Source: a virus. From it: 64,000 bases of DNA. The notes beneath the pieces were generated by a model. It saw only the letters and a list, made by a program, of their open reading frames with translations, ran no database searches and was not told the origin of the DNA. The stretch lies in IMG/VR virus record IMGVR_UViG_3300046005_000547, positions 170,736-234,735 of that record; one strand, given 5' to 3'. Below, in pieces: positions 10,589-62,645 of the stretch. Numbering within the stretch: the stretch's first letter is position 1; each line of letters begins with the position of its first letter. Both the position numbers and the translations under genes were made by a program.

Positions 10589-11035
10589 TTAAGGTTTTGA
10601 CGCAAATACATTAAAATGTTCAATATAATAACCGATTGCGCCAGCTATACCAACAATAAACCATTTCCATTGTTCAATCTTAGAAATACGTTCTTCTAAT
10701 TCTTCAATTTTATCTACAGTGTCTTCCAATTTATCTTTGTGAGCTTCAGCAAATTTTGAACCAAATTCAGCAACGCTTTTATTGATTTGTTTATCAGATT
10801 CATCCACTTTAGAAGATACGGCTTTAACATCTTGAACTAGAGATTTATGTTGTTCTTCAAATTTAATAATTTTTTCTTCATGTACAGCAACCATTTTATT
10901 CATGGTGATTGTATTTTCAGCAACCTTTTCAACAACTTTTTCTAATCTGTCGATTGTTCTTTGTTGGGATGCCAATTCAATATCGGCGACGTGGTCGGAT
11001 GCTCTTCTTTTAACAATCTGCTCTTCCATATGCAT
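10589..11035 (-). CDS. Coiled-coil protein with C-terminal membrane anchor
   Basis: 148 residues. Residues ~20-120 are heptad-rich charged helix (RTIDRLEKVVEKVAENT, DKIEELEERISKIEQ), followed by a single hydrophobic segment WFIVGIAGAIGYYI and a short tail. This architecture is seen in phage proteins placed near structural genes, and in some holin/spanin-like or tail-associated proteins. Which one cannot be decided here. Confidence 0.6.
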   Translation of the reverse strand: MHMEEQIVKRRASDHVADIELASQQRTIDRLEKVVEKVAENTITMNKMVAVHEEKIIKFEEQHKSLVQDVKAVSSKVDESDKQINKSVAEFGSKFAEAHKDKLEDTVDKIEELEERISKIEQWKWFIVGIAGAIGYYIEHFNVFASKP

Positions 11036-11420
11036 TTTCCGTTAAAGTTAAAAAATCAATCACTTGAATTTCTTCTTGTAATCGTTTATTTGATGAGACA
11101 ATATCTAAAAATTGTTCAGAAATTATATTCTCATCCATGTTGTTCTTGTATGATTCTTTGATTAAGAACATAGCAGCAGCTAAATTTTTAATTCTAGTGT
11201 CACCTCCAGGCAACATATTCATCATACGTTTTAAATTAAAAACTAATCTTTTTAGATAATTGACTGAATCTTTCTCTTCAGATGTTTTTAATGTATTGTA
11301 TTTTTTCAACACTTTACCATTCTCATCAATGATGCCTAATTTAAAAGCATCAGTTTGATTAAATGGTGTGGTCAATAATGACAATATACGTAAAGCAATA
11401 AGATTATCGATAATTTTCAT
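11010..11420 (-). CDS. Conserved T4-like phage protein of unknown function
   Basis: 136 residues, mostly helical. The block DAFKLGIIDENGKVLKK followed by RLVFNLKRMMNMLPGGDTRIKNLAAAMFLIKE is a pattern I associate with a conserved protein near neck/assembly genes of T4-like and cyanobacterial myophages. It overlaps the coiled-coil gene by 26 bases and the upstream gene by one base. Function not established. Confidence 0.6.
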   Translation of the reverse strand: MKIIDNLIALRILSLLTTPFNQTDAFKLGIIDENGKVLKKYNTLKTSEEKDSVNYLKRLVFNLKRMMNMLPGGDTRIKNLAAAMFLIKESYKNNMDENIISEQFLDIVSSNKRLQEEIQVIDFLTLTENAYGRADC

Positions 11421-11761
11421 TACATTCCTCTTAACATGTTAAATGTTTTTTCATCATATTCCATTCCTTCATCTATATCATAATTAAGAAACATTACAAC
11501 AGAAGCAATTACACCCCAATGTTTCTTATCTATTTTATTGTAGAGGAATTCTGTTGTATTAACACCAAAAACATTATATAGAATTATGATATGATTGACT
11601 ATCAATTTAATACAAGATTCTTCATTGTTTGTATATCTGACAAGCAATTTCCTCAATAAATTAAATCTTGCATAATCATATTTGAATTCAAAGATATTAT
11701 TACATTGAAGATTATTATAAGAATTTTTTGCTTTATCGAAGAAATCATTGTCGTCATTCAT
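11420..11761 (-). CDS. Conserved helical phage protein
   Basis: 113 residues, all-helical (FEFKYDYARFNLLRKLLVRY, NHIIILYNVFGVNTTEFLYNKI). The pair with the downstream 136-aa gene recurs in T4-like phages near virion genes, which is the only hint at function. Confidence 0.55.
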   Translation of the reverse strand: MNDDNDFFDKAKNSYNNLQCNNIFEFKYDYARFNLLRKLLVRYTNNEESCIKLIVNHIIILYNVFGVNTTEFLYNKIDKKHWGVIASVVMFLNYDIDEGMEYDEKTFNMLRGM

Positions 11762-24309: not shown

Positions 24310-24988
24310 ATTTGAATTCCTTTATATTATTTGCGTTCATCAACAATTCTTCTATTTCATGTATGTCTGGAAACTTATTGTCTACATTCAGAATAGGATA
24401 CATCGTCAATTCATTATTTTCATACATTGAATTACATTTAGTTCTTAATTGGAGTTCCTTACTTTGTAATTCATCTTTACTCAATTTCTGATAACGTCCA
24501 ATATCATTTAATTCTGGTAATCTACCCTCCAATAGACATTCAGCAACGTAAAGACATCTTGAAATATGAAATGATTTTCGATTCTTTTTATCTTTACTTG
24601 TATTCAATAATTTCAAATCAAATTTAGCTCTACCGACGAATCCTTTTATAATTTTGTACGTTCTACATGTTAATAATTTATCCGAATTCGTTATGTCTGT
24701 GAATAACACCAATTCAGCAAAAATGTTAGATTCACCAGATAATAAATTTTTGTAAAACGTAGATTCAGTTGTCAACATCCATTGAGTGTTATTTTCGATG
24801 TCATCAAATTGAAAACAATGGATGTTTGGATAAATTCTATCTGAATTGAAAATATCGTCGAGTATTAAAACAATATCCTTGTCCGATTGTTCTGTATTGG
24901 TTTTATGTAAATGGGATCCAAACGTATATCTAGAAATTGTATATTGTTTCAATATATCAAATTGTTCTTTTGTAATTTTTATGTTCAT
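24302..24988 (-). CDS. Nucleotidyltransferase-like protein
   Basis: 228 residues. SRYTFGSHLHKTNTEQSDKDIVLI (about 19-42, split GSHLHKT / SDKDI) is the G-S-x-x-x-G/K-T...S-D-x-D signature of phage/bacterial pol-beta-type nucleotidyltransferases (the 'predicted nucleotidyltransferase' group). The remainder is helical. Third such gene in the window (with 15032 and 50965). Target unknown. Confidence 0.55.
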   Translation of the reverse strand: MNIKITKEQFDILKQYTISRYTFGSHLHKTNTEQSDKDIVLILDDIFNSDRIYPNIHCFQFDDIENNTQWMLTTESTFYKNLLSGESNIFAELVLFTDITNSDKLLTCRTYKIIKGFVGRAKFDLKLLNTSKDKKNRKSFHISRCLYVAECLLEGRLPELNDIGRYQKLSKDELQSKELQLRTKCNSMYENNELTMYPILNVDNKFPDIHEIEELLMNANNIKEFKYD

Positions 24989-25485
24989 TTTTCTCCTTTC
25001 ATCATTTCTCTGTTTAATTCAACCACTTTCAATAGATTGTTATAATTTTCGGAGACGTAATTCTGTAATTCAAACCTATTTTCTGGTTTGATGTATTCAT
25101 CCGTTAAGATTGAATATAATTCTTTTAATGTACGTTTGTCGATCTTCTTGGAGGTTCCATCTGTAAATTTGATTTCATTATTATATCGAATTGCTTTATT
25201 ACATTGGATGATAATAGGTTCTAATGGTTTTGGTTGTTTCTTCAGATTAAGGTATTGTTGAACAAAAATATCAACATCTTCTTCGATCTTGGGGATTTCA
25301 TAGAATCCTTTTGAACGAGTATTTTCTTTCATCCATTGTTTGATTCCTTTGGGTGATGGGATGTTAAGATATTCATTTGTTTCTTGGAAGAAATACTCTG
25401 GGATACCGCCTGAATTCTGCGTATCTGATAAGAAGTAAATTGATGAGATTAGAGATAGGTATTGATTAAGTGATAATTCTTTCAT
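24985..25485 (-). CDS. Paralogue family F1 (FxDGTS) member
   Basis: 166 residues. Shares IKFTDGTSKKIDKRTLKELY and YIKPENRFELQNYVSENYNNLL with 22024-22500 and 26667-27335. Expressed from a promoter at 25.5 kb and probably also from upstream repeat promoter A, whose transcript has no terminator before this gene. Confidence 0.6.
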   Translation of the reverse strand: MKELSLNQYLSLISSIYFLSDTQNSGGIPEYFFQETNEYLNIPSPKGIKQWMKENTRSKGFYEIPKIEEDVDIFVQQYLNLKKQPKPLEPIIIQCNKAIRYNNEIKFTDGTSKKIDKRTLKELYSILTDEYIKPENRFELQNYVSENYNNLLKVVELNREMMKGEK

Positions 25486-25506
25486 TATTGTATTTGTTTA
25501 ATTGTT

Positions 25507-25533
25507 AGTATAATGTATTAGATATAATCGAAA
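25507..25533 (-). promoter_or_regulatory. Phage promoter (TTTCGA-N15-TATACT)
   Basis: TTTCGA at 25528-25533 and TATACT at 25507-25512 on the - strand, 15-base spacer, 22 bases before the family F1 gene. Confidence 0.6.
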
Positions 25534-25615
25534 AAGAGTCTTGAAGTAATATAGAAAATAATAAAAGAATATTAAAATGAAACAATAGAACTAACTCAAA
25601 CCGTCGACATAGTCT

Positions 25616-25645
25616 AGTATACTGGGTTTTTATCGATTTCGAAAG
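25616..25645 (-). promoter_or_regulatory. Repeat-array promoter A
   Basis: CTTTCGA (25639-25645), 17-base spacer, TATACT (25616-25621), then the invariant AGACTATGTCGACG downstream. The predicted transcript is a ~120-base leader into the 24985-25485 gene. Confidence 0.65.
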
Positions 25646-25744
25646 GAGTAATTAGACGTTGATTATTACACATTCGATAACCTTGGTCTCTTTCGATACG
25701 TGATTATAATTGTTTCGATGTTAATGTTTAATTTAACAGTCTAT

Positions 25745-25838
25745 ATTGTTGTTTTAAGATGTATTAAATGTATCCTGTAGAGTTGATTGACATAATAAGG
25801 AAAGATTCCATTAGAGCGGATTATTGGACAAATAATGG
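25745..25838. repeat. R2 structured repeat, copy 1
   Basis: Shares TTGTTGTTTTAAGATG, TATCCTGTAGAGTTGATTGACA and TTATTGGACAAATAATGG with seven other copies. Lies between terminator B and promoter A. Confidence 0.7.
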
Positions 25839-25883
25839 ATGTTAATGATTCAACATAGAATTGATATATTGTAAATTTCAAAC

Positions 25884-26058
25884 AATAAAAATCCCGACAG
25901 AATTGTTCATTCTTATCGGGATCTGAGACTCAGAGATTTTATGTTGAATTATTGTATAGAATATATTCGATAAAGACATTAATATACTCTATAAAGAATC
26001 TAATAGTAATATAAAAGAATATAGAAAAACAATAGATACACTAACTGAAACGTCGACA
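25884..26058 (-). ncRNA. Putative short RNA B of the repeat array
   Basis: A predicted - strand transcript of about 175 bases, starting a few bases after TATACT at 26065-26070 (CTTTCGA at 26088-26094, 17-base spacer) and ending at a terminator (ATCCCGA / TCGGGAT, then TTTTTATT). It contains no convincing ORF. Its 5' end (ACTATGTCGACG) and the motifs CTTTATAGA and TTCAACATAAAATCTC recur in units D and E. RNA boundaries are inferred from motifs only. Confidence 0.5.
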
Positions 26059-26064
26059 TAGTCT

Positions 26065-26094
26065 AGTATACTGTATTTTTTATCATTTCGAAAG
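26065..26094 (-). promoter_or_regulatory. Repeat-array promoter B
   Basis: CTTTCGA (26088-26094), N17, TATACT (26065-26070), followed by AGACTATGTCGACG. Same layout as copies A, C, D and F. Confidence 0.65.
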
Positions 26095-26182
26095 GAGTAA
26101 TTAGACTCTGTAATAATCATATTTATTCGATATCCAGTCAATCTTAAGACGTATTCGATGTTCCTTTCGATACATGATATAA

Positions 26183-26488
26183 TCAGTTTCGATGAATAAC
26201 TTCGATAGATTCAATCTTAACATTATTTGATTTACGTCTATCCAACATATATTCATTGACATTTAATCTAACGAAATTCTCCGATCCTGATACAATCTTA
26301 AATTTACAGATAATATCATATCGACCATCAACCAAGTTTGAATTGTTAAAATTACCGTCAGTTACTCGTTTTAATATGAAGTCAATGTTTGGACTGAACC
26401 ATTTGAATCTCTTGGTAAAATCCAATCTATCTTTTGAATTTTCATATTCCTTCAAACACATCGCTCTGTACATTATCATATCCATCAT
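26183..26488 (-). CDS. Unknown small protein between repeats
   Basis: 101 residues, beta-rich C-terminal half (RYDIICKFKIVSGSENFVRL). Flanked by an R2 repeat upstream and the array promoter B downstream. Start uncertain among several clustered ATGs (MMDMIMYRAM). No known family. Confidence 0.5.
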   Translation of the reverse strand: MMDMIMYRAMCLKEYENSKDRLDFTKRFKWFSPNIDFILKRVTDGNFNNSNLVDGRYDIICKFKIVSGSENFVRLNVNEYMLDRRKSNNVKIESIEVIHRN

Positions 26489-37390: not shown

Positions 37391-38083
37391 TTATTTGGTT
37401 ACAACAGCGAAGGTGTTTTCTGACACTTGATAGTTTGAAATGAATTTCAATTTTAATTGTTTTTCAACAAATGTTTGTAATGTATAATTTTCTGGATATG
37501 GAAACTTCTTACGTAAAAGGCCGTTACCGCTTACGATTCCAATGTCACCAAATTCCTTTGAAATTGTATAGATTTTATGATATGATGGTGTCATAAAATC
37601 TACAATATCATCAACTGTATTACATTCTTGTTGCATTGATAAATCATGTTCATCTTTGATTGAATGATTTGTGACAAAATACATTGAATTTGTATTTTCA
37701 TTTACTCTAACATGACCAACAAGTTTCCCGTCTTTCCATAATTCAATGTATGTATCTAAAATTACATCATCAAATTGTCGTTTAATTTCTGTATTAAATT
37801 TAATGGCGAAATTCTTTTGGAAATTAGAGTTTGCATAAACATCCAATAATAATTGATTCTTATCAACAGTCTTCTTTAAATTAGAATGAGTTGCCAACAT
37901 TGTAATGAATTCAGGAATATCGTCTTTATCCACAATAATTGTATCCGAATCGTCTAATCCAAAGATTTTGACTGTTCCATCATTTTCGTAACTATCTGTT
38001 ACATAATAAACGTTTTCATTGGAACATTCTTGTTTTAATGACGTAGATATATACCCGTCTTCTTTTTCTTGTTCAATATACAT
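37391..38083 (-). CDS. Unknown protein
   Basis: 230 residues from ATG 38083 (AAGGAAAATAAA upstream). Acidic N-terminus (EQEKEDGYISTSLKQEC), then mixed beta (YIELWKDGKLVGHVRVNENT). No family recognised; co-transcribed with groES. Confidence 0.55.
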   Translation of the reverse strand: MYIEQEKEDGYISTSLKQECSNENVYYVTDSYENDGTVKIFGLDDSDTIIVDKDDIPEFITMLATHSNLKKTVDKNQLLLDVYANSNFQKNFAIKFNTEIKRQFDDVILDTYIELWKDGKLVGHVRVNENTNSMYFVTNHSIKDEHDLSMQQECNTVDDIVDFMTPSYHKIYTISKEFGDIGIVSGNGLLRKKFPYPENYTLQTFVEKQLKLKFISNYQVSENTFAVVTK

Positions 38084-38187
38084 TTTATTTTCCTTCAATA
38101 GTGATTATGTTAAAATTTCTACATCTAAATGTTGATTCGGATAACCAACAAATACATTATAATTGATTATCCGTTAAAAGTAAAATC

Positions 38188-38589
38188 TTATCTATCGTTA
38201 TTTAAAATCGAATCATTACAATTCCCTTTAATTGAACCATTCACTGTTGAACATTTACCACCAATAGAACCTCCGACTTTAACGTTTCCATTGGTCGTTT
38301 TTACGTTACCAGCGACATTCTTTTCAATCTTAACGGATCCATTCGTGGTTTCGACTTCACCAACATCTCCAGTAACAAATACGTTTTCGCATACGTCTAC
38401 TTGTAATGATTCGATATTACCATTAATTGTGATGTTAATTGTTTTCTCATCATCAGAATTCACCAATTTGTCATTAACATACACTTTATTGTTTACAACT
38501 CGAACGTTTCTACCACCAGCATATTGTTTATCGTTTACAATAATACTACCAGCAACGTTATCTGTATCTTTTGAATTCCAAAATGCCAT
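38188..38589 (-). CDS. Beta-solenoid-like protein
   Basis: 133 residues from ATG 38589 (GGAGAAATAAA upstream). The C-terminal half has short repeats: NGNIESLQVDVCENVFVTGD, GEVETTNGSVKIEKNV, GNVKTTNGNVKVGGSI, GKCSTVNGSIKGNC. This is the ladder of DUF2807/putative-adhesin-like beta-solenoids. Its start nearly touches the sirtuin stop. Function unknown. Confidence 0.65.
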   Translation of the reverse strand: MAFWNSKDTDNVAGSIIVNDKQYAGGRNVRVVNNKVYVNDKLVNSDDEKTINITINGNIESLQVDVCENVFVTGDVGEVETTNGSVKIEKNVAGNVKTTNGNVKVGGSIGGKCSTVNGSIKGNCNDSILNNDR

Positions 38590-38590
38590 T

Positions 38591-39280
38591 TTATTTCTCC
38601 ATCTTCTTGAAAATGGTATCACAAATCTTAGGAACTTGTTCTCCTGCCTTACCTTCAAAGAATTCAAATTCAGCCCACATTGTTGATGGTTTAACTAAAT
38701 CCACCAATAAAATTTTACAGTCTGAACCGACGGCATCCAATAATGACGCAGCAGGATAAACTGATAACGACGTTCCAACCACAACCATGTAATCATAATG
38801 TTCTTCTTTAATCATTGCATATGCAGTTTCAAACATCGGAACATCTTCATAGAAGAATACAATATGTGGTCTTAATTGATTACCTTGTTCAGATAATGTT
38901 CCCACAAACATATCATCAGTCCAATCATATGTAAATCCTGTTACGGTATCTCTTGCTTTAAGTAATTCGCCATGTAGATGGATAACTTTGCTGGAACCTG
39001 CTCGTTCATGTAAATTATCAACATTGGTTGTGATGACTGTTACATCATGATATTGTTCCAATTCCTTGATAGCAATATGTGCTGCATTAGGTTCAACAGT
39101 CTGAACTTCTTTGCGTCTCATGTTATAAAATTCATGAACCAATTCAGGAGTTTCGGCTAATGCCTTTGGTGTACAAACATCTTCAATGTTGTAGTTGTTC
39201 CATAATCCATCTGAATTTCTAAATGTACTCAGACCAGATTCAGCTGATATACCAGCACCCGTTAAAAATAATATCTTCAT
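38591..39280 (-). CDS. Sirtuin (Sir2 family, class III type) NAD-dependent deacylase
   Basis: 229 residues. NAD-binding motifs GAGISAESGLSTFR (8-21), TTNVDN (84-89), catalytic HLHGEL (His103), LRPHIVFFYE and VVVGTSLSVYPAASL are all present. FYNMRR carries the Y52-x-x-R55 pair typical of class III enzymes (CobB, SIRT5) that remove succinyl or malonyl groups. The four zinc-binding Cys expected between HGEL and LRPHIV are missing. It may reverse host lysine acylation, act with the ADP-ribosyltransferase in NAD chemistry, or counter NAD-based immunity; none is shown. Confidence 0.9.
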   Translation of the reverse strand: MKILFLTGAGISAESGLSTFRNSDGLWNNYNIEDVCTPKALAETPELVHEFYNMRRKEVQTVEPNAAHIAIKELEQYHDVTVITTNVDNLHERAGSSKVIHLHGELLKARDTVTGFTYDWTDDMFVGTLSEQGNQLRPHIVFFYEDVPMFETAYAMIKEEHYDYMVVVGTSLSVYPAASLLDAVGSDCKILLVDLVKPSTMWAEFEFFEGKAGEQVPKICDTIFKKMEK

Positions 39281-39591
39281 AATAATTTCTCAATAAATTT
39301 ACCAAAAATGAATCCTTGATAGAAAGGATGAACTTCATTATAATGAATCTTATTTGTCCCACCCCATTCATCAAAGAATTCAACATATGGTATTTTTCCT
39401 TGTAAAATAGTGACTCTACAAGTTTTCCAACCACCAAAACAATACTCAATATCATAAATCCCATCTTGAATATCTTTCAACAAAATACCATCATTAAGTT
39501 CATCATATGTAATGTTTGGTAAATCATATGTGTCTTCTAATTGGGTTATCTGACGATACGATAATTGATTTTCATTATCTGATTTTAACAT
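39277..39591 (-). CDS. Unknown protein
   Basis: 104 residues with GAGGATTGAAAA before ATG. Contains GIYDIEYCFGGWKTCRVTILQG, a small beta-sheet pattern; overlaps the sirtuin start by four bases. No family recognised. Confidence 0.55.
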   Translation of the reverse strand: MLKSDNENQLSYRQITQLEDTYDLPNITYDELNDGILLKDIQDGIYDIEYCFGGWKTCRVTILQGKIPYVEFFDEWGGTNKIHYNEVHPFYQGFIFGKFIEKLL

Positions 39592-39597
39592 TTTTCA

Positions 39598-39634
39598 ATC
39601 CTCTATAAAGCGGAACATCCATTATAGATGTTCC
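39598..39634 (-). terminator. Hairpin terminator
   Basis: Stem GGAACATC / GATGTTCC with moderate T content after it, downstream of the 39642 gene. Confidence 0.6.
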
Positions 39635-39641
39635 GTCCAAA

Positions 39642-39899
39642 TTATTTGTATTGATGTTTTCGTTTAGATTGAGTCTTCCAACATTTATCTGAATGACGAT
39701 GTATATCATCCCATGAACTTGGTAATCTATTTGCTCTATTACGACCAGATACATGTAATCCAGTTTCAATTACATCAGGATCGATAAAACTCATCTTACG
39801 TTCTTGTGTTGTTCTAATGGTTCTGTAACCAACGTGCATAATTTTCTCCAATTGAATAAATTCAGTGGAACCCATTATTTCTGTTATGTAAAATTTCAA
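39642..39899 (-). CDS. Small conserved phage protein
   Basis: Up to 85 residues (TTG start at 39899; an in-frame ATG opening MGSTEFIQ is an alternative). The end SWDDIHRHSDKCWKTQSKRKHQ matches a widespread short phage protein ending in a W..W.K...RKQ-type motif of unknown role. Confidence 0.5.
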   Translation of the reverse strand: MKFYITEIMGSTEFIQLEKIMHVGYRTIRTTQERKMSFIDPDVIETGLHVSGRNRANRLPSSWDDIHRHSDKCWKTQSKRKHQYK

Positions 39900-40661: not shown

Positions 40662-40690
40662 ATTATATTCATTTAGTCCAAATAAGAAAG
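40662..40690 (-). promoter_or_regulatory. Phage promoter (CTTTCTT-N16-TATAAT)
   Basis: CTTTCTT at 40684-40690 and TATAAT at 40662-40667 on the - strand with 16-base spacer. Confidence 0.65.
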
Positions 40691-40697
40691 AACTATT

Positions 40698-41072
40698 TTA
40701 ATCGAATTGTTTATATTCAAAATGAAATTTAGTCTGACTTTCGTTCATCAATTTAACAATACGTCTACCATCAGCATGAAATTCATCAGAACAATTCTTA
40801 TGTTCCTCTAAATCCGTATGTCCTTCCCAATACGCATGCCAATAATATAAAGCAATCATCAATCCTTCTGGTACGTATTGTTCAACATCACATTCACTAA
40901 TCATCAATCCTGTTTCATGTTCCCATAACCCACTAGAACAATAATCAGGAAATACATCAATACGTTTCTTATTCATCTTGCCCAATATATCAACCATCTT
41001 GTGATATGATTCCTTCTTGTCTTTCTGTAAATCAACAATCTCGTCTTCGGTCAACATTCTAAATTCAATCAT
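40698..41072 (-). CDS. Unknown protein
   Basis: 124 residues, acidic; ALYYWHAYWEGHTDLEEHKNC is unusually aromatic and His-rich. Overlaps the upstream gene by eight bases. Confidence 0.55.
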   Translation of the reverse strand: MIEFRMLTEDEIVDLQKDKKESYHKMVDILGKMNKKRIDVFPDYCSSGLWEHETGLMISECDVEQYVPEGLMIALYYWHAYWEGHTDLEEHKNCSDEFHADGRRIVKLMNESQTKFHFEYKQFD

Positions 41073-41556
41073 TAGGATCTATCCCCATCATTGATTTAGC
41101 TCGATTTCTAGCGGAATCTCTATCTTTATACACCATACCAGACTTTACCAATGCATTTTGAATTTCTGAATATGTATCGTATCTATTCACAAAATTTGTA
41201 TGATTGATTGAACCAAAATCAGGATAATAAAAGGAATCTCCAGGTTTCAACAATCTATTACCATCTTCTACTTCAAATCCATTGATGGTAATCATCTTCT
41301 TTACTCGTTCTGGTCTTTTTAATATACAAATCGAAGTAGATTTACCATAGGTTGTATCGAATTTCGATTTATGTATCATTCTGAATTCAACAGTCGCACA
41401 ATCATCTGGTTGTTTATCCCAATCAACAAATTGTTCGAAAAACGCATTAGGATTTTCTTTGTGAAACTCATCTATCGCTTCAATCAATTCATCCTTGTAT
41501 TCATTGTCTAACCCAATTGTTTCTAAAATACATTCGGCTAATTTAACATTACTCAT
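41065..41556 (-). CDS. Unknown protein with phage C-terminal domain
   Basis: 163 residues. The C-terminal domain (INGFEVEDGNRLLKPGDSFYY ... DRDSARNRAKSMMGIDPND, split) matches that of 31060-31596, so the two share a module joined to different N-termini. First gene after the 41.6 kb promoter. Confidence 0.6.
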   Translation of the reverse strand: MSNVKLAECILETIGLDNEYKDELIEAIDEFHKENPNAFFEQFVDWDKQPDDCATVEFRMIHKSKFDTTYGKSTSICILKRPERVKKMITINGFEVEDGNRLLKPGDSFYYPDFGSINHTNFVNRYDTYSEIQNALVKSGMVYKDRDSARNRAKSMMGIDPND

Positions 41557-41583
41557 TTTGTTCTCCTTTGTTAAGATGGTTCT

Positions 41584-41612
41584 ATTATACTATACTTTTT
41601 CAATATCCAAAG
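41584..41612 (-). promoter_or_regulatory. Phage promoter (CTTTGGA-N16-TATAAT)
   Basis: CTTTGGA at 41606-41612 and TATAAT at 41584-41589 on the - strand, 16-base spacer. The -35 box overlaps the T-tail of the neighbouring terminator. Confidence 0.7.
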
Positions 41613-41646
41613 AAAAACCTAGCTGATATTTCTACCAACTAGGTTC
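41609..41646 (-). terminator. Terminator T1 (repeated sequence)
   Basis: Stem ACCTAGTTGG..., paired with ...CAGCTAGGT, T-rich tail. Nearly identical copies at 42155-42198 and 42865-42902. Confidence 0.85.
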
Positions 41647-41655
41647 TCTGATTAT

Positions 41656-42138
41656 CTATTCAATCCAAAATGACAATTTCATAATAGAATTAAATCTATA
41701 CATTTTAGAATCTTCAACTTTTATTTTCGCGCCGCAACCAATGTATATTTCATCTCCGTTTATAAATGAATTGTAAATTACATCAACCAAATTGTAATCT
41801 ATTTTCTCTCCATTTTTACAGACATCAAAATATACATTTATATGATTTGAAATTGATTCATTAGAAATCTTATATAAATCCTTACTAGAAAATGTATGAG
41901 GATTTATATACAATAAAAATTCAACAAATTTATTTTTAGAATCAACACAAAATCCAATACATTTAGATTCAATGTTACCATCAACATTTTTAAATTCTAA
42001 TGGTTTCAATTCAGAATCATCCATTTTTACAAACATAGAACGTTCGTCAATTATATAATTTTGATTTTCGATTGTATCCAATAAATTATACAAATTATCG
42101 TTACGTTCTGAATATGATTTTGTATATTTTACCAACAT
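41656..42138 (-). CDS. Unknown protein between repeated terminators
   Basis: 160 residues, beta-rich (IKVEDSKMYRFNSIMKLSFWIE at the end, split). Bounded by near-identical terminators on both sides. No family recognised. Confidence 0.55.
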   Translation of the reverse strand: MLVKYTKSYSERNDNLYNLLDTIENQNYIIDERSMFVKMDDSELKPLEFKNVDGNIESKCIGFCVDSKNKFVEFLLYINPHTFSSKDLYKISNESISNHINVYFDVCKNGEKIDYNLVDVIYNSFINGDEIYIGCGAKIKVEDSKMYRFNSIMKLSFWIE

Positions 42139-42154
42139 CAGAATTCCTATAGTA

Positions 42155-42198
42155 ATTAAAAAAAGAAATCCTAGTTGATATTTCTACCAACTAGGTTC
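42155..42198 (-). terminator. Terminator T2 (repeated sequence)
   Basis: ACCTAGTTGGTAGAAATATC hairpin with TTTCTTTTTTT tail on the - strand, copy of T1. Confidence 0.85.
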
Positions 42199-42202
42199 AA
42201 CA

Positions 42203-42808
42203 TTACAACAATTTATCTGTAATCAACATACGTTTCATCTTATGTCTATCAGTTTTACCCCAAATATCTTTATTTTTCTTTTTGAACATTTCCCATTCGT
42301 GTAAATTATCAATCTTCTCCAATTCTTTGGTTAAAAAATCAAAATAATATACGTTCAATCCTTTATTAAACGCCTTACCGATACAACGTTCCCAAAATCG
42401 TTTACCATCAAATGTTTGAATAGAATCCGTTAAAATTGTATGGTGTCGTTTCAATAAAATTTCAAAAAACATTTTAGCCGCAACACCTTCGATATAATTG
42501 TAAACTGGATTTATCCAAACTCCAGATTGCCAAACGAAATCTCCAAGTTCTATACAACTACCCAATTTATATGTCATATCGTATGTAATCAATTCTTCTT
42601 CAATATCTAATACAAAGAAATTATCTCTCCATTCGTACATATTTGAATTTGCCGATAAATTAAACGCCAATTTCTTTCTTTGTTCTTTATACAATTCCAG
42701 ATAATTTTCTCTATTTTTATCTGCATCTATTAATTCTTCTGGATCCCAACTTTTCATAATCTTTGGCATTTCCATCAACATTTTATTGTATTCTCCAAAT
42801 CTCAACAT
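42203..42808 (-). CDS. Acetyltransferase-like protein with CTS-like N-terminus
   Basis: 201 residues from ATG 42808 (GGGAATGAAG upstream; MKML two codons earlier is possible). MLRFGEYNKMLMEMPK shows the CTS-like pattern with LME as (L/I)xE. The body has VAAKMFFEILLKRHHTILTDS.QTFDGKRFWER, parallel to the GNAT-like proteins at 3200 and 18634. Inferred to be a second injected acetyltransferase-like protein. Expressed from a CTTTGGA-type promoter. Confidence 0.5.
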   Translation of the reverse strand: MLRFGEYNKMLMEMPKIMKSWDPEELIDADKNRENYLELYKEQRKKLAFNLSANSNMYEWRDNFFVLDIEEELITYDMTYKLGSCIELGDFVWQSGVWINPVYNYIEGVAAKMFFEILLKRHHTILTDSIQTFDGKRFWERCIGKAFNKGLNVYYFDFLTKELEKIDNLHEWEMFKKKNKDIWGKTDRHKMKRMLITDKLL

Positions 42809-53620: not shown

Positions 53621-54117
53621 TAGATACACTCCAGTAAGATATCCAAACAAATAGTTGATTGTGTCTTATTCATATTTCGATTCTGTCTTAGATATTGAAT
53701 AATCTGAATTGTTGATTTCTTATAATTATCAGATGGACAATCCATTACATTCGATAATCTATCAACTAATTTAATGGTAAGTCCGTAAGATGACATCGAA
53801 ACTAATTTCAACATCAGGTAATTAGTCTTACCAATAATTTTAATTTGTTCATCGTCGGAAGTCATCTCATCAACTAGGTTGGCAATCAGATCCCCAAATC
53901 TCGTTCTGATTTCATCGTTAGATACTTCACAGTCTTCTTGTACGTCATGTAATAGACAAACAGAAACCAATGATTCGATGTTCTTAGATGTTTTATATTT
54001 GCGTAACAATTCTGCTACATGAATAGGATGAGTGATATATTCTTTACCAGTCTTTCTTCTGAATTGACCTTGATGTTGTTCTGTGGCAAATTTTAACGCA
54101 TCGTCGATAATGTTCAT
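53620..54117 (-). CDS. HD-domain (p)ppGpp hydrolase-like protein
   Basis: 165 residues. Follows the RelA/SpoT hydrolase/MESH1 order: ALKFATEQHQGQFRRKTGKEYITHP (split; H-Q-G-Q-x-R-K ... YITHP), CLLHDVQEDCEVSNDEI (the HD pair and ED), FGDLIANLVDEMTSD and KLVDRLSNVMDCP (second D-x-x-x-N). Length fits small alarmone hydrolases. It may keep the host stringent response off during infection. Preceded by an R2 repeat rather than a standard promoter. Confidence 0.75.
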   Translation of the reverse strand: MNIIDDALKFATEQHQGQFRRKTGKEYITHPIHVAELLRKYKTSKNIESLVSVCLLHDVQEDCEVSNDEIRTRFGDLIANLVDEMTSDDEQIKIIGKTNYLMLKLVSMSSYGLTIKLVDRLSNVMDCPSDNYKKSTIQIIQYLRQNRNMNKTQSTICLDILLECI

Positions 54118-54123
54118 TTAACA

Positions 54124-54223
54124 CCATTATTTGTTGTTTTAAGATGGATTAGATTTATCATGTAGAGTTGATTGACATATTATGGAAACGTTCCACTAGA
54201 GTGGATTATTGGACAAATAATGG
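54124..54223. repeat. R2 structured repeat, copy 3 (best preserved)
   Basis: Perfect 11-bp end repeats CCATTATTTGT (54124-54134) and ACAAATAATGG (54213-54223) enclose TGTAGAGTTGATTGACA and the hairpin CCACT-AG-AGTGG. Confidence 0.75.
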
Positions 54224-54247
54224 AGGAATTATATGCCAATCAACGAA

Positions 54248-57321: not shown

Positions 57322-57596
57322 AACCACTCCTCAATAATGTTTAACAATTCGTCGATAGTCTCAAATTTACCATTATCTACATCGATTATAACATAATCTC
57401 CATCCCCTTTAAGACAACAAATCACTTCGCCTATTTGTTTACCGATATCTACAACCATTTTAATTGTGGTGTCTGTATTAGTTAATTCAAACACTCTACC
57501 AACCGTCGAAGGATAATTTCTAATCAGGAACTTTGTTCTCAATAATTCATTGAATTGGATCTGATTATGTAATGATTCTTTCTTCATGACGATCAC
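57318..57596 (-). CDS. Small unknown protein
   Basis: 92 residues, beta-rich middle (TVGRVFELTNTDTTIKMVVD, split by DIGKQIGEV). Overlaps its neighbours by four bases each. No family recognised. Confidence 0.55.
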   Translation of the reverse strand: MIVMKKESLHNQIQFNELLRTKFLIRNYPSTVGRVFELTNTDTTIKMVVDIGKQIGEVICCLKGDGDYVIIDVDNGKFETIDELLNIIEEWL

Positions 57597-57787
57597 CCTT
57601 CACATTTAACTGAATACCCAAGGATTGAATCTTGGTTCATTTGTTCCAACAATTTGACTTGTTCTTGTTTTCCTCTGATGCATTCAGAACGAGAAGGATA
57701 CCCAATTTTGTATTCATGATTCACCAATTCAGTTTGTCCACCAGTGATTATTGATGCAGAGAGAAAGGAAACGATTAAGATTGACAT
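57593..57787 (-). CDS. Small exported protein
   Basis: 64 residues with a signal-peptide-like start (ILIVSFLSASIITGG) and two Cys in the mature part, suggesting periplasmic location. First gene downstream of the repeat array. Function unknown. Confidence 0.55.
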   Translation of the reverse strand: MSILIVSFLSASIITGGQTELVNHEYKIGYPSRSECIRGKQEQVKLLEQMNQDSILGYSVKCEG

Positions 57788-57843
57788 TGTTATTACCTCA
57801 TAAAATTGTAAATGAAATTCAGGATTAAACCAACTTGAAATCT

Positions 57844-57872
57844 ATTATAATGATTTTAATATACATCGAAAG
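57844..57872 (-). promoter_or_regulatory. Phage promoter (CTTTCGA-N16-TATAAT)
   Basis: CTTTCGA at 57866-57872 and TATAAT at 57844-57849 on the - strand, 16-base spacer; its leader (CCAACTTGAAATCTATTATA as + text) is a looser third copy of the duplicated leader. Confidence 0.8.
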
Positions 57873-57972
57873 GAATTTTCCAGTTGAAATGTATATAAAA
57901 TAAAGTCGAGGAAGACACTAAAAGAAAACCTAAAAACAATAGATACACTAACTCAAACCGTCGACATAGTCT

Positions 57973-58002
57973 AGTATATCCGAGTTTTATCGATTTCGAA
58001 AG
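57973..58002 (-). promoter_or_regulatory. Repeat-array promoter C
   Basis: CTTTCGA (57996-58002), N17, TATACT (57973-57978). Its transcript has no terminator before the 57787 gene, so it acts as a leader promoter. Confidence 0.65.
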
Positions 58003-58114
58003 GAGTATTCTTATCATGTAATAATCATATTCGATGCTTACGGTTATCCTTCGATGTCCTTAATGCTCTTTCGATATGTTGAATTTACAGTTTCGATGTA
58101 ATCATTAAATCCTT

Positions 58115-58213
58115 TCCAATTATTTGTTGTTTAAGATGGATTCATTATATCCTGTAGAGTTGATTGACATTTAACATAAAGATTCCATTAGAGTGGATTA
58201 TTGGACAAACAAT
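58115..58213. repeat. R2 structured repeat, copy 4
   Basis: CCAATTATTTGTTG, ATATCCTGTAGAGTTGATTG and CCATT-AG-AGTGG with TTATTGGACAAA. Between terminator D and promoter C. Confidence 0.7.
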
Positions 58214-58257
58214 AGATACATTAGGGTTGTTTTGGAATGACAATTCTGTATATTGAA

Positions 58258-58457
58258 TCCAATAAAAATCCCAACAGAATGTTTAGTTCATATTGGGATT
58301 CTGGATGACAGAGATTTTATGTTGAATAATTGATATAATAAAGTCTATAAAATGTCTTGTGATGATATAATAAAGTCTATAAAGAGTCTTGAAGTAATAT
58401 AAAAGAATACTAAAACGAGTAAAGAACATTAATAGAACTAACTCAAACCGTCGACAT
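58258..58457 (-). ncRNA. Putative short RNA D
   Basis: About 200 bases on the - strand from promoter D (CTTTCGA 58486-58492, N17, TATACT 58463-58468) to a terminator (AATCCCAA / TTGGGATT, then TTTTTATT). It contains two tandem copies of the TATAATAAAGTCTATAAA motif (as + text) and no ORF. Boundaries inferred. Confidence 0.5.
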
Positions 58458-58462
58458 AGTCT

Positions 58463-58492
58463 AGTATACTGGGTTTTTTATTATTTCGAAAG
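58463..58492 (-). promoter_or_regulatory. Repeat-array promoter D
   Basis: CTTTCGA, 17-base spacer, TATACT, then AGACTATGTCGACG. Confidence 0.65.
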
Positions 58493-58616
58493 GAGTATAA
58501 GACGATGATTATTACACATTCGATACATTATTTCATCTTAAGATTCCGTTTCGATGTTTAATATGTTCTTTCGATATGTTGAATTTACAACTTCGATGTT
58601 CTTGTTTATTATAGAC

Positions 58617-58718
58617 ATCCATATTGTTGTTTTATGATGGATTCAATATATCCTGTAGAGTTGATTGACATATAATGGAAACGATCCATTAGAGCCCATT
58701 AACGAGCAAATAATGGAT
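58617..58718. repeat. R2 structured repeat, copy 5
   Basis: Ends ATCCAT...ATGGAT; carries ATATCCTGTAGAGTTGATTG and the AGCCCATTAACGAGCAAATAA variant also seen in copy 8. Confidence 0.7.
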
Positions 58719-58761
58719 ATATTAAGAATGATTCGGAACAAACATATTGTAAATTTCAAAC

Positions 58762-58934
58762 AATAAAAATCCCACTCAGAATAAATCTGGCGGGATCTGA
58801 ATGACGGAGATTTTATGTTGAATATAGATGATTATATTATGTCGTTGTAGTAATATAATAATGTCTATAAAGAATCTAATAGTAATATAGAAGAACACTT
58901 AATGAAAGTAAAGGCAATAACTGAAACGTCGACA
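58762..58934 (-). ncRNA. Putative short RNA E
   Basis: About 170 bases on the - strand ending at a hairpin ATCCC / GGGAT with TTTTTATT. Its promoter is degenerate: TTTTCGA and TATAGT (58941-58946) are only 11 bases apart, so this unit may be weak or dead. Confidence 0.35.
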
Positions 58935-59082
58935 TAGTCTACTATAATTGAATTTCGTCGAAAAGTCAAGAGAAATCTTTAGCTTGTAATAATCATATTC
59001 GATGCCTTAGATTATCGAACAATACCTTTAATGCTCTTTCGATACATGGTATCTATTGTTTCGATGTTAACATAAAATCCTG

Positions 59083-59184
59083 TCCAGTTATTTGCTGATT
59101 TAAGATGGAGAGATTTTATGACATAGAGTTGATTGACATAATATACAAAGATTCCATTAAGATGGAATATTGGACAAATAATGG
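59083..59184. repeat. R2 structured repeat, copy 6
   Basis: Carries TTTGCTGATTTAAGATGG, CATAGAGTTGATTGACAT and ATTGGACAAATAATGG. Confidence 0.7.
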
Positions 59185-59229
59185 ATGTTATATGATTGGA
59201 TTGAAATCATATTATGTAAATTTTAAACA

Positions 59230-59361
59230 ATAAAAATCCCAACAGAATGATTAGTTCACGTTGGGATGAATTATAAAGTCGATAAAGAATCTTGAAGTAA
59301 TATAGAAAACAATAAAAGAATATAGAAATGTTATTAAAGGTAATAACTGAAACGTCGACAT
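59230..59361 (-). ncRNA. Putative short RNA F
   Basis: About 130 bases on the - strand from promoter F (CTTTCGA 59390-59396, N17, TATAGT 59367-59372) to a terminator with stem ATCCCAA / TTGGGAT and TTTTTATT. Shares the AAAGAATCTTGAAGTAATAT motif (as + text) with units A and D. Confidence 0.5.
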
Positions 59362-59366
59362 AGTCT

Positions 59367-59396
59367 ACTATACCCGAGTTTCTGACATTTCGAAAG
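59367..59396 (-). promoter_or_regulatory. Repeat-array promoter F
   Basis: CTTTCGA, 17-base spacer, TATAGT, then AGACTATGTCGACG on the - strand; divergent from the ADP-ribosyltransferase gene. Confidence 0.6.
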
Positions 59397-59501
59397 GAGT
59401 TTAAGACGTTGATTATATCAAGCTCGACGTTTCGTGTATTCTTAAGACTCTTTCGATACATTGAATTTACATCTTCGATGTTAACATTTAATCCTACATG
59501 G

Positions 59502-59597
59502 AAATTTGCTGATTTAAGGACGATTCATTATATCCTGTAGAGTTTCCTGTCATACATAATAAAAACATGTTAAATTGTATTATTGAACAAACAAATA
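59502..59597. repeat. R2-related repeat, copy 7 (degenerate)
   Basis: Keeps TTTGCTGATTTAAGG and TATCCTGTAGAGTT but loses the GATTGACA box; runs up to the ADP-ribosyltransferase leader, which includes tandem AAAT repeats (59588-59610). Confidence 0.55.
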
Positions 59598-59629
59598 AAT
59601 AAATAAATAAAATAACAAAAGGATAATCC

Positions 59630-62431
59630 ATGAAAACCTTCACTGACATACGCAAACAAATCAACGAGAACAGTCTTTATACTTCTCAACAAGAGAAAGA
59701 CGACTTCCTGAAAGATAAAAAGAAAATTGTAACTGCATTCTTATACTCTTTCATCGGTAATCTATCTCTTTACAATAAAGACTCTGCCAAAGCAAAACAT
59801 TATTTCTTATCGGATAAGAAATTACAGATTGTCAACATCAATGACGATAACAATGATGCGTCTTTAATTCTGAAAATCATGCATGATGAACATGGATTCA
59901 AGAATACAAACACTGCCAATGAGATGACTAAATTATTGGCAAAATTGAAAGTCTCGGATGTATCATCATTCGATGATGCAATTATCAGAGCATGGTTGTC
60001 GGATCTATCTCCTGCGTTCCATTCCGCTATCCCAACGGATTTGAAAAAGACTGTCGATGATTACATGAATAGTGTCACCAGTTTCGATAGATTGAGTTAC
60101 AAATTGTATAAACATAAGACTGCTTATGGTGACGGAGAGTATCTTGATTTGGCAAAGAAAGTTGGTCGAATCGAAAGACATACACATAAACCGAAAGTCG
60201 TAGTGACTCCAACTGCATCTGCCGTTCCACCTACATTAGCAAATCCTCAGATATTTGTTCCTACCGTTAATACATCGACTGCTGTTGTTACAACTCCACC
60301 GGATGTTATAGATGAACCTATTCAAATTGTTGAGAAAGAACCAGAAGTTAAACAATTCAATCAAGAATTGTATGACAAATTTAAAGTTAAAAATTTATTG
60401 AGTGATGATGAATGGGATGAATTGATTGAGGATAAAGAAGTTTTCGTTAAAATAATGATTGAATCTCCGAAACGATTATATACAACCCAATACCATAAAA
60501 TTAGAAAAGTTATGTTCAAAGAATTATCGGAAGAACAACTCATGGAAATGAAGAAAGTCTCCTGGAATTTAGATGTATTTAAATATGATATCAAAGATTC
60601 AATCATGATTCTGAAAGATAGAAATATGGATTTCGTTAAGATTTTTGGACCTTTACGAGTTGCGCAATATATGTGCGACAAAGATATTTCCGCGGGTAAA
60701 GAAATCATTGATTTTTATACTGAACAAAAGATCTTAATTTCAACTGATAATGGTAATCGTATTGTAAAGGATTTTCCAGAAATCTTAGTGGATGCAGTTA
60801 AATTGACAATCAAAGACATGGGAGTCGATTATGGTAGCTCGATGGCTGTTCATTTAAATCAACAACAAATTGATGAAATTTATGATGTTAATGATAGATT
60901 ACTTGTATTACGAAATGTTGTATTGACTGGTAGATTGATAAAGGATCCAGTTGATTTATTGAAGAAATTCAATTACAATGAAGTTTTAATCAAAGCTGGT
61001 TTAGAAAATACAAGTGTGCCTCATTTCACGCCGTATCTAAATTCAATGAATAAATTGTTCATGGAAGATATGGATAAATGGTATCCATGGGAACGAAAAT
61101 ATAGTTACATTAAACAATTATTCACCAAACCAAATGTAATTGATTATTTCAATGATAAATTTAAAAGAGCATTTACGGATGATGGTGTATTTGAATACTT
61201 CGACGACAAAGAACGATTAGATGGTATTTCATCATCATTGTTTGATTTGTTAGTATCCAATTATAAAACCAAACCGGAACTTGTTGATTCTATCTTCAAT
61301 GATTTTGGTGATAAGATTAAAACAAGAGTCAAAAAGAATTTCAACTCGACATTCAGAGTGATGCATGATTTAAAAGATAGCGCATTACCAATCAAAGAAG
61401 AACTAGATGCCAAATCTATTCAAGCTATCTTGGAATTCAATGACATCGACCTTAGTGTAATTTCTGGCACCAAAATGAAATTCTCTAAGAACAAATCGTT
61501 AAGTCAAACAATCAATGATTTTGTTAAAGATGAATCTGTTACCACTATTGAACCATTGAAAATTGTTGATTTGAAAACATCTGATGCAGATAACAAGAAG
61601 TTATCTCAGAAGATTGTTGATGAAACGCATTCTGGTGGTAAACATGGGGACATCTATCCATTAGTCTTACGTCAATTTGAAGTTCATCTACCAGATGATA
61701 AATTCCAAGAGTTCAAAAAATTGATGATTCAGAATAATTCACATAAAGAGATTGTTCCTGCTTTCCATGGCACTGGTTCTATTGCAGCTAATATGATTCT
61801 TAGATATGGATTTAAAGTGTTACCAGAACAAAGTAATTCTGCTATTGGTATACAAGGTAGAATGTTAGGTGATGGTATTTACTTTGGTACCAATATCGAC
61901 AAAGTATTACAATATGTTGGTAATAAAGGAATGACCAGAAGACTTGGTACAACTGGATATGTATTTGAAATGGAGAACGAACTTGGGGTAAAAGGTAATG
62001 ATTACAAAGAAGCTGGGTTGGGTAATGATAAAATTGCTTCGCCAGAATGGGTTGTATTTGATGCCAACAGACAATTAAAAATTATTAAGGCGTATGAAGT
62101 GAAATTGGTAGATAAATCAGAATTAGATAAATCATTAAATGAATCAGTCAAACCAAGAATGATGTCATTCAAAGAATATGTTGATATCAAGAAGAACAAT
62201 TATACATCATACAATTTCTATGACAGAAATGTAATTACGCCTGATGGCAAAGTAATCAAATCGACTGATGTAACAGACACTACATTTAAGAAAGGTATTA
62301 GAGTTGAAATCAGAGGAAGAATTACATCAGTGATTATTCCAACGAAACAATTAGAATTCAATGATGTATTGAGTTGTTATGATTTACAGGATAAACAATT
62401 AGACAAGTATCTTCGTCTATTGAATAAATAA
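59630..62431 (+). CDS. PARP-like ADP-ribosyltransferase with CTS-like N-terminus
   Basis: 933 residues, start with AAAGGATAATCC. It begins MKTFTDIRKQINENSLY, a capsid-targeting-like peptide with INE as cleavage-like site. Residues ~185-240 are a Pro/Thr/Val-rich linker; ~245-640 are helical and unassigned. The catalytic domain spans ~690-820: H713 in AFHGTG, Y751 in GDGIYFGTNIDKVLQY and E806 in SPEWVVFDANRQLKI, i.e. the H-Y-E triad of PARP-type transferases. Residues 845-858 (MSFKEYVDIKKNN) repeat the CTS-like pattern, suggesting fusion of a second head-targeted segment. By analogy with T4 Alt it may enter the host with the DNA and modify host proteins at once; T4 Alt, however, is of the R-S-E type, so this would be convergent. 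Targets unknown. Confidence 0.78.
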   Translation: MKTFTDIRKQINENSLYTSQQEKDDFLKDKKKIVTAFLYSFIGNLSLYNKDSAKAKHYFLSDKKLQIVNINDDNNDASLILKIMHDEHGFKNTNTANEMTKLLAKLKVSDVSSFDDAIIRAWLSDLSPAFHSAIPTDLKKTVDDYMNSVTSFDRLSYKLYKHKTAYGDGEYLDLAKKVGRIERHTHKPKVVVTPTASAVPPTLANPQIFVPTVNTSTAVVTTPPDVIDEPIQIVEKEPEVKQFNQELYDKFKVKNLLSDDEWDELIEDKEVFVKIMIESPKRLYTTQYHKIRKVMFKELSEEQLMEMKKVSWNLDVFKYDIKDSIMILKDRNMDFVKIFGPLRVAQYMCDKDISAGKEIIDFYTEQKILISTDNGNRIVKDFPEILVDAVKLTIKDMGVDYGSSMAVHLNQQQIDEIYDVNDRLLVLRNVVLTGRLIKDPVDLLKKFNYNEVLIKAGLENTSVPHFTPYLNSMNKLFMEDMDKWYPWERKYSYIKQLFTKPNVIDYFNDKFKRAFTDDGVFEYFDDKERLDGISSSLFDLLVSNYKTKPELVDSIFNDFGDKIKTRVKKNFNSTFRVMHDLKDSALPIKEELDAKSIQAILEFNDIDLSVISGTKMKFSKNKSLSQTINDFVKDESVTTIEPLKIVDLKTSDADNKKLSQKIVDETHSGGKHGDIYPLVLRQFEVHLPDDKFQEFKKLMIQNNSHKEIVPAFHGTGSIAANMILRYGFKVLPEQSNSAIGIQGRMLGDGIYFGTNIDKVLQYVGNKGMTRRLGTTGYVFEMENELGVKGNDYKEAGLGNDKIASPEWVVFDANRQLKIIKAYEVKLVDKSELDKSLNESVKPRMMSFKEYVDIKKNNYTSYNFYDRNVITPDGKVIKSTDVTDTTFKKGIRVEIRGRITSVIIPTKQLEFNDVLSCYDLQDKQLDKYLRLLNK

Positions 62432-62436
62432 TGAAA

Positions 62437-62471
62437 GAATCCCAGACATGTTAAAGTGTCTGGGATTTTTA
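62437..62471 (+). terminator. Terminator of the ADP-ribosyltransferase gene
   Basis: Stem AATCCCAGACA / TGTCTGGGATT followed by TTTTT on +. Confidence 0.85.
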
Positions 62472-62573
62472 ATGGAAATTTGTTGTTTTAAGATGGAATA
62501 ATAACATCCTGTAGAGTTTATTGACATATAATGGAAACGAACAACTAGAGTCCATTAACGAACAAATAATGGA
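62471..62573. repeat. R2 structured repeat, copy 8
   Basis: TTTGTTGTTTTAAGATGG, CATCCTGTAGAGTTTATTG, TTGACATATAATGG and TCCATTAACGAACAAATAAT. Lies between the rightward transferase terminator and the leftward terminator at 62.61 kb, so the transferase gene is bracketed by R2 copies 7 and 8. Confidence 0.7.
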
Positions 62574-62611
62574 TGTTTTAATATTGATTTGTGGTCAGAA
62601 TATTGTATCCA

Positions 62612-62645
62612 ATAAAAATCCCAGTCAACTTCGGTCTTCTGGGAT
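62612..62645 (-). terminator. Rho-independent terminator
   Basis: Stem ATCCCAG / CTGGGAT with a TTTTTATT tail on the - strand after the 62653 gene. Confidence 0.8.

Follow-up and report, generated by a model that had tools for sequence, protein, structure and literature searches.

What could be the use of a run of near-identical predicted promoters, most of which lead into a terminator and not into a gene? This question is raised by two loci in the window, a stretch of 64,000 nucleotides corresponding to positions 170736-234735 of a virus record of 234,735 bases (G000; IMGVR_UViG_3300046005_000547). The sequence AGACTATGTCGACG occurs exactly at 6 sites of the window, all on the - strand (25602, 26051, 57959, 58449, 58927, and 59353), and with up to 3 mismatches 10 matches are found against 2.5 expected, a number reached in 0 of 100 shuffles. 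An earlier note on this DNA had described six units here, sharing CTTTCGA-N17-TATA(C/G)T and an invariant core. The core, the -10, and the -35 are found at all six, the exception being the unit at 58927, which has TTGACT-N17-TATAGT and reveals that there are two -35 classes. Also, the near-identity of the promoters, the hairpin and T-run after four of the units (26051, 58449, 58927, and 59353, with none after 25602 and 57959), and the gene into which the gene-proximal unit of an array leads were all read correctly. The six units are real; they are, nonetheless, only part of a larger family, since a search of the whole record locates 24 units in seven arrays (Table 1).

According to its proteins, G000 belongs to the T4 superfamily. 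The nearest relative of its UvsX-like recombinase is that of Sinorhizobium phiM12 (52%), and its helicase is nearest to those of cyanophages (about 60%). A megablast search with 14 kb against 50,697 phage records gave no match, which indicates that this collection holds no close sequenced isolate of the lineage. The record was compared with a relative of 249 kb (G002; IMGVR_UViG_3300046008_000242), with which it shares 257 reciprocal best hits, the median protein identity being about 69% over all best hits. Three further records (G001, G003, and G004) represent strains almost identical to G000, and a third relative was sought through the DnaB-like helicase, for which G002 gave 82% and the next best sequence, at about 60%, was too distant. 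The independent genomes compared are thus G000 and G002, two in number. The relative likewise contains 24 units in seven arrays, diverged in sequence from those of G000. In both genomes, the arrays hold two to five units arranged head-to-tail and cover 5.2% (G000) and 5.1% (G002) of the DNA. A self-comparison of G000 returns 18.0 kb of dispersed repeats, with arrays of up to 2.2 kb, whereas the same procedure applied to Aeh1 returns 4.0 kb, spread over 31 short regions of at most 318 bp, and no arrays.

Table 1. Arrays of G000 and features of the units in the window (positions are those of the window unless G000 is indicated)
Feature	Position	Strand	Details
Array 1	G000 41.7-43.5 kb	-	5 units
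Array 2	G000 72.8-73.9 kb	+	2 units
Array 3	G000 104.1-106.0 kb	+	5 units
Array 4	G000 140.2-141.6 kb	-	4 units
Array 5	G000 162.4-163.0 kb	-	2 units
Array 6	G000 196.3-196.8 kb; window units 25.6-26.1 kb, extent 25417..26386	-	2 units; junction of blocks F and G
Array 7	G000 228.7-230.1 kb; window units 58.0-59.4 kb, extent 57774..59688	-	4 units; G|A junction
Unit A promoter	25616..25645	-	-35 CTTTCGA 25639-25645; -10 TATACT 25616-25621; core AGACTATGTCGACG 25602-25615
Unit A		-	without terminator; leads into gene 24985-25485
Gene led by unit A	24985..25485	-	166 aa, function unassigned, no PHROG match
Unit B promoter	26065..26094	-	core 26051-26064
Unit B terminator	25891..25922	-	hairpin, then T-run
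Unit C promoter	57973..58002	-	core 57959-57972; without terminator; leads into gene 57593-57787
Single middle-type promoter (predicted) in unit C leader	57842..57872	-	CTTTCGATG box and TATAAT; about 85 nt before gene 57593-57787
Gene led by unit C	57593..57787	-	64 aa, function unassigned
Unit D promoter	58463..58492	-	core 58449-58462
Unit D terminator	58263..58305	-	hairpin and T-run
Unit E promoter	58941..58970	-	TTGACT-N17-TATAGT class; core 58927-58940
Unit E terminator	58763..58796	-	hairpin and T-run
Unit F promoter	59367..59396	-	core 59353-59366
Unit F terminator	59231..59267	-	hairpin and T-run
Phased ATCGAA-type boxes upstream of unit F promoter	59404..59492	-	same layout upstream of every unit
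Divergent gene at far side of array 7	59630..62431	+	933 aa, weak PARP-like catalytic domain

The anatomy of the unit was obtained from an alignment of all 48 units of the two genomes. In the direction of transcription, the order of the elements is CATCCATTATTTG..TAATCCA..TAATGGAA, the box CAATCAACTCTA, about three ATCGAA boxes, the promoter, the core, the body, and the terminator. Because about 250 bp upstream of the promoter are also conserved, the repeat unit amounts to about 470 bp. The boxes lie at about -42, -62, -83, -103, and -124 from the end of the -10, in steps of 20-22 bp or 39-40 bp, which places them on one face of the helix. The predicted promoters, of the sigma70 type, are located in gaps between genes, their -35 being CTTTCG in 35 of the 48 units and CTTGAC or CTTGCC in 13, with a spacing of 17 bp to the -10. 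Behind the -10 stands the core, TAGACTATG in the array units; the 12 bases downstream of the -10 are invariant, and TAT..TAGACTATGTCGA is identical in 48/48 units, so that the promoter core, whose loss from close relatives the earlier note had named as a refutation of its reading, is kept throughout G000 and G002. This layout suggests a regulatory cassette in which phased binding boxes would precede a putatively strong promoter of the host-sigma70 type and a short leader with a terminator.

The upstream half of the unit (CCATTATTTG...CAATCAACTCTACAGGATA...CCATCTTAAAACAACAAAT) is also found standing alone, at 54101-54235 and 62468-62631 of the window and at 143107-143219 and 161878-162100 of G000. 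These solitary halves lie between genes or between two terminators, in part have CCATTATTTGT/ACAAATAATGG inverted repeats at their flanks, and may represent an independent element.

The unit bodies are AT-rich and ORF-free stretches of 130-195 nt, with a GC content of 22% against 29% in other intergenic DNA. A protein-coding role was ruled out, since a ribosome-binding site with a start is found only at real genes, as the earlier note had also held; moreover, in many units the frame that starts at ATGTCGAC has only four codons before a stop. A hairpin followed by a T-run closes 32 of the 48 units, at 128-192 nt from the start of the core in 30 of them and at about 290 nt in two that have an intervening small gene. 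At the paired positions of these 32 terminators, alternative pair types are observed (CG/TA/AT, GC/AT), which points to selection on the hairpin. The units that adjoin a gene mostly have no terminator, and 15 units of G000 consist of a terminated, gene-less body, from which we infer that RNAs of about 130-195 nt would be made.

If so, the short RNAs themselves could be the product, with a function in trans, regulating or sponging up an RNA or a protein of the host or the phage. The 15 gene-less units, the selected terminators, the invariant 12 bases after the -10, and a U-rich, G-poor body (45% U, 7.5% G) are all compatible with this possibility. However, the bodies are no more structured than their shuffles (z between -0.6 and +0.3), with nothing stable beyond the terminator, and an Rfam search of the window from 57500 to 60000 gave no match at E up to 1. 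The bodies also vary in length and module order, only short modules being common to G000 and G002, and the units that lead into genes have the same 5' part, which would fit a leader as well as a regulator. An action in trans thus appears unlikely. For the same reasons, namely unstructured bodies, absence of an Rfam family, and shuffled short modules, the roles that the earlier note had put forward for these RNAs (regulator, decoy for the host polymerase, replication primer) find no support.

The promoter of the units belongs to a wider set. Outside the arrays, CTTTCGA-N15..18-TATAAT, with some -10 variants allowed, is found at about 20-25 sites per genome (25 in G000 and 24 in G002), against 0.6 in a first-order Markov shuffle of 80 kb and about 2 expected by chance. 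Most of these single sites are located 60-95 nt before a gene and are followed by AGATTTCAAGTTGG or a variant. They look like a class of middle promoters with a phage-specific box in place of the -35. In T4, middle promoters have a MotA box in place of the -35 together with a sigma70 -10 (PMC2988021), and in both cases some 12-14 bp would separate the box from a TATAAT-like -10 downstream; the boxes themselves differ, being TCTTTCGATG here and (a/t)(a/t)(a/t)TGCTTtA in T4. Pfam searches for MotA and AsiA gave no match in G000 and were equally silent in the control genomes, so absence is not implied. T4 early promoters, on the other hand, are strong and sigma70-type with extra conserved bases (PMC2988021), and the 13 units with CTTGAC or CTTGCC resemble them, with the difference that here 12 bases after the -10 are invariant and the promoters stand in arrays with a terminator after each. 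We infer that an activator, of phage or host origin, probably binds the CTTTCGA -35 and the upstream ATCGAA boxes, and that it would serve as well some 20 single promoters of the middle type.

Promoters of the form TTGAC-N17-TATAATAGACTATGTCGA are present in many viral contigs from a few otherwise unrelated lineages, many of them apparently reading antisense into a gene. These contigs were rejected as relatives of the arrays, since they hold single copies and no array. A host or cell origin of the core was also considered, and a scan of genome contigs returned no more than three, all from Clostridium; the two that were inspected proved to be tRNA promoters and gave no pointer to a host.

A promoter of the middle type followed by an AT-rich stretch is also the arrangement of oriF and oriG of T4, and the arrays could accordingly be replication origins at which an easily unwound stretch would give rise to an RNA primer. 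The low GC content of the bodies and the middle-like promoters are in line with such a function, as is the spacing of the seven arrays, which is more even than that of random points (CV 0.21, p 0.0004 in G000; CV 0.24, p 0.0008 in G002), this test having been made after the positions were seen and the two values not being independent because the genomes share blocks. Nonetheless, the arrays occupy seven places and the predicted RNA is G-poor, and G-poor RNA disfavours stable R-loops. Origins of this kind are therefore, in our judgment, improbable.

A comparison of the units with one another shows that they evolve in concert within each genome. In a tree of the 48 units, those of G000 fall on one side and those of G002 on the other (100/98), despite the arrays being at corresponding places, and units that group together there are often members of different arrays. 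Of the 21 array pairs in G000, 19 share exact matches of 40-95 bp, as do 26 of the 28 pairs in G002, and it is because of these many shared stretches that exchange among arrays by homologous recombination is proposed. Also, between G000 and its strain G001, array 7 is identical but for one base, with an abrupt change at its upstream edge, and the PARP-like gene beyond it (59630-62431 of the window) is a different, diverged allele in G001. Regarding the agent, the Pfam families of tyrosine and serine recombinases (PF00589 and PF00239) were silent in G000 with positive controls, which makes ordinary homologous recombination the likelier one.

The arrays are also the places of the large rearrangements between the two genomes. 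Both consist of the same seven blocks, roughly 20-48 kb each between arrays, in the order A B C D E F G in G000 and A -B C -E -F -D G in G002. The only junction kept is G|A, where an array is present in both genomes, and the large breakpoints fall within arrays in 6 of 6 cases, in G000 as well as in G002. If breakpoints are restricted to G000 gaps of at least 300 bp (n=28, 10 of them in arrays), the chance of this result is C(10,6)/C(28,6), about 0.0006. Displacements outside arrays concern a few single genes. Moreover, inverting B, inverting D-E-F, and then exchanging E and F converts G000 into the exact block order and array orientations of G002 (-,+,+,+,+,-,-), the two inversions taking place between oppositely oriented arrays and the exchange between like-oriented ones. 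The agreement of the predicted array orientations with G002 was not built into the analysis. Crossovers between arrays, amounting to one inversion and one inversion plus transposition, would explain the orientation of every block and array.

Part of these junctions can be checked against other sequences. In G002, the genes for the gp18 tail sheath (37534-39747, -) and the gp17 terminase (40690-42315, -) are neighbours with an array between them, and they are also neighbours in phiM12 and Aeh1, which suggests that the order of G002 is the old one there and that G000 carries the derived inversion of B. Contigs that were assembled separately show the G000 order again at arrays 1, 2, 6, and 7, the junctions around B being repeated in G001, G003, and G004. 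Together, the gene order and the repeated junctions give good support to at least the inversion of B as something other than an assembly artefact. Arrays 3, 4, and 5 of G000 and most of the junctions of G002 come from one assembly each; assemblers fail at shared repeats, and the longest exact repeats here, 95 bp, are shorter than usual reads.

At the terminase gene, a terminator-less unit is located about 70 bp from the 3' end and antisense to the gene in both G000 (73918) and G002 (40622), with the same orientation despite the inversion of the adjoining block. The array beside this gene points at its 3' end in both genomes, and no obvious gene is driven. The large subunit itself (G000 74002-75981) has 659 aa with an intein-like insertion of about 120 aa, and the G002 protein has 541 aa without it.

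The presence of the invariant core at all six breakpoints could be taken to mean that it is the site of a site-specific recombinase that flips genome blocks, its promoter activity being secondary. Against this, Pfam detects neither integrase nor resolvase in G000, the exact tracts shared between arrays lie at many positions of the unit and not at the core alone, and the same core sequence, as TAGACTATGTCGA, follows the -10 of single-copy promoters in a few unrelated virus lineages. Such a site is very improbable.

Some cassettes carry cargo in both genomes, for example a small gene that has a terminator of its own (units at G000 162972 and G002 137196). An HNH endonuclease gene is found within array 2 (G000 72942-73583), with a counterpart in an array of G002 (10810-11481), and its cuts could drive exchange between arrays. 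This cargo raises the question of whether the gene-less units are debris, left by the loss of operons or cargo between cassettes or by duplication of units and having no role of their own. The conservation of the boxes, the core, and the terminator in nearly every copy, between genomes about 31% apart in protein sequence, and the equal number of units in G000 and G002 argue otherwise, and we regard such an origin as hardly credible.

The arrays resemble a system known from T4-type phages. Composites of an early promoter and a stem-loop (PeSLs) are said to mediate gene shuffling in these phages (PMC4503421). As far as that account describes them, they share with the units an intergenic early-type (sigma70) promoter, predicted here for all 48 units, a stem-loop terminator, present here in 32 of 48 with compensatory changes, dispersal in similar copies, 24 in each of the two genomes here, and a tie to modular gene shuffling, represented here by the six large breakpoints at arrays and the cargo genes between units. 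By the same account, the differences are that the present units measure about 470 bp, form tandem arrays of two to five with phased upstream boxes, and are mostly gene-less, and that they are located where blocks of about 20-48 kb are inverted or transposed between the genomes, the two systems having been compared by description. A literature search for phage arrays of this kind and size, whose scope lay outside the original descriptions of PeSLs, found none. These descriptions are reportedly those of Arbiol et al. in 2010 and Comeau et al. in 2014, in Genome Biol Evol. Neither the spread of the arrays over the genome, nor their coincidence with all large breakpoints, nor the precedent of promoter and stem-loop cassettes in T4-type phages had been noticed in the earlier note.

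Based on the anatomy of the units and the comparison of the two genomes, the arrays are thus probably PeSL-like promoter-terminator cassettes that have been expanded in tandem and that would both drive the neighbouring operons and act as recombination junctions. Cassettes would have multiplied into the seven arrays, in which the gene-proximal one would drive the early or middle operon next to it, or else a small gene carried as cargo, and the gene-less ones would make terminated RNAs. Homologous recombination among arrays would exchange sequence and produce concerted evolution and mosaic units, and an occasional crossover between arrays would invert or transpose a block of roughly 20-48 kb. 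Points that count against this reading are that several block junctions come from a single assembly, that the array beside the terminase gene has no obvious gene to drive, that single genes are displaced outside arrays as well, and that arrays also mark the heads of operons, where breakpoints would be tolerated anyway.

That the genome is modular and keeps its evenly spaced arrays as junctions is a more tentative proposal. Possibly, they serve as hubs of homology for inverting and permuting blocks of about 20-48 kb, each of which would keep a complete promoter array at its edge; if this were true, a rearrangement would never cut an operon off from its control region.

Finally, the analysis brings to light a putative middle-type promoter box (TCTTTCGATG). 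In T4-type phages, promoter-stem-loop cassettes are known as places where small genes are swapped, and here such cassettes would have grown into arrays. Their position at the whole-genome breakpoints of two relatives links the control of transcription to genome architecture, and provides a testable account of how a large phage may reorder its genome without breaking its operons.
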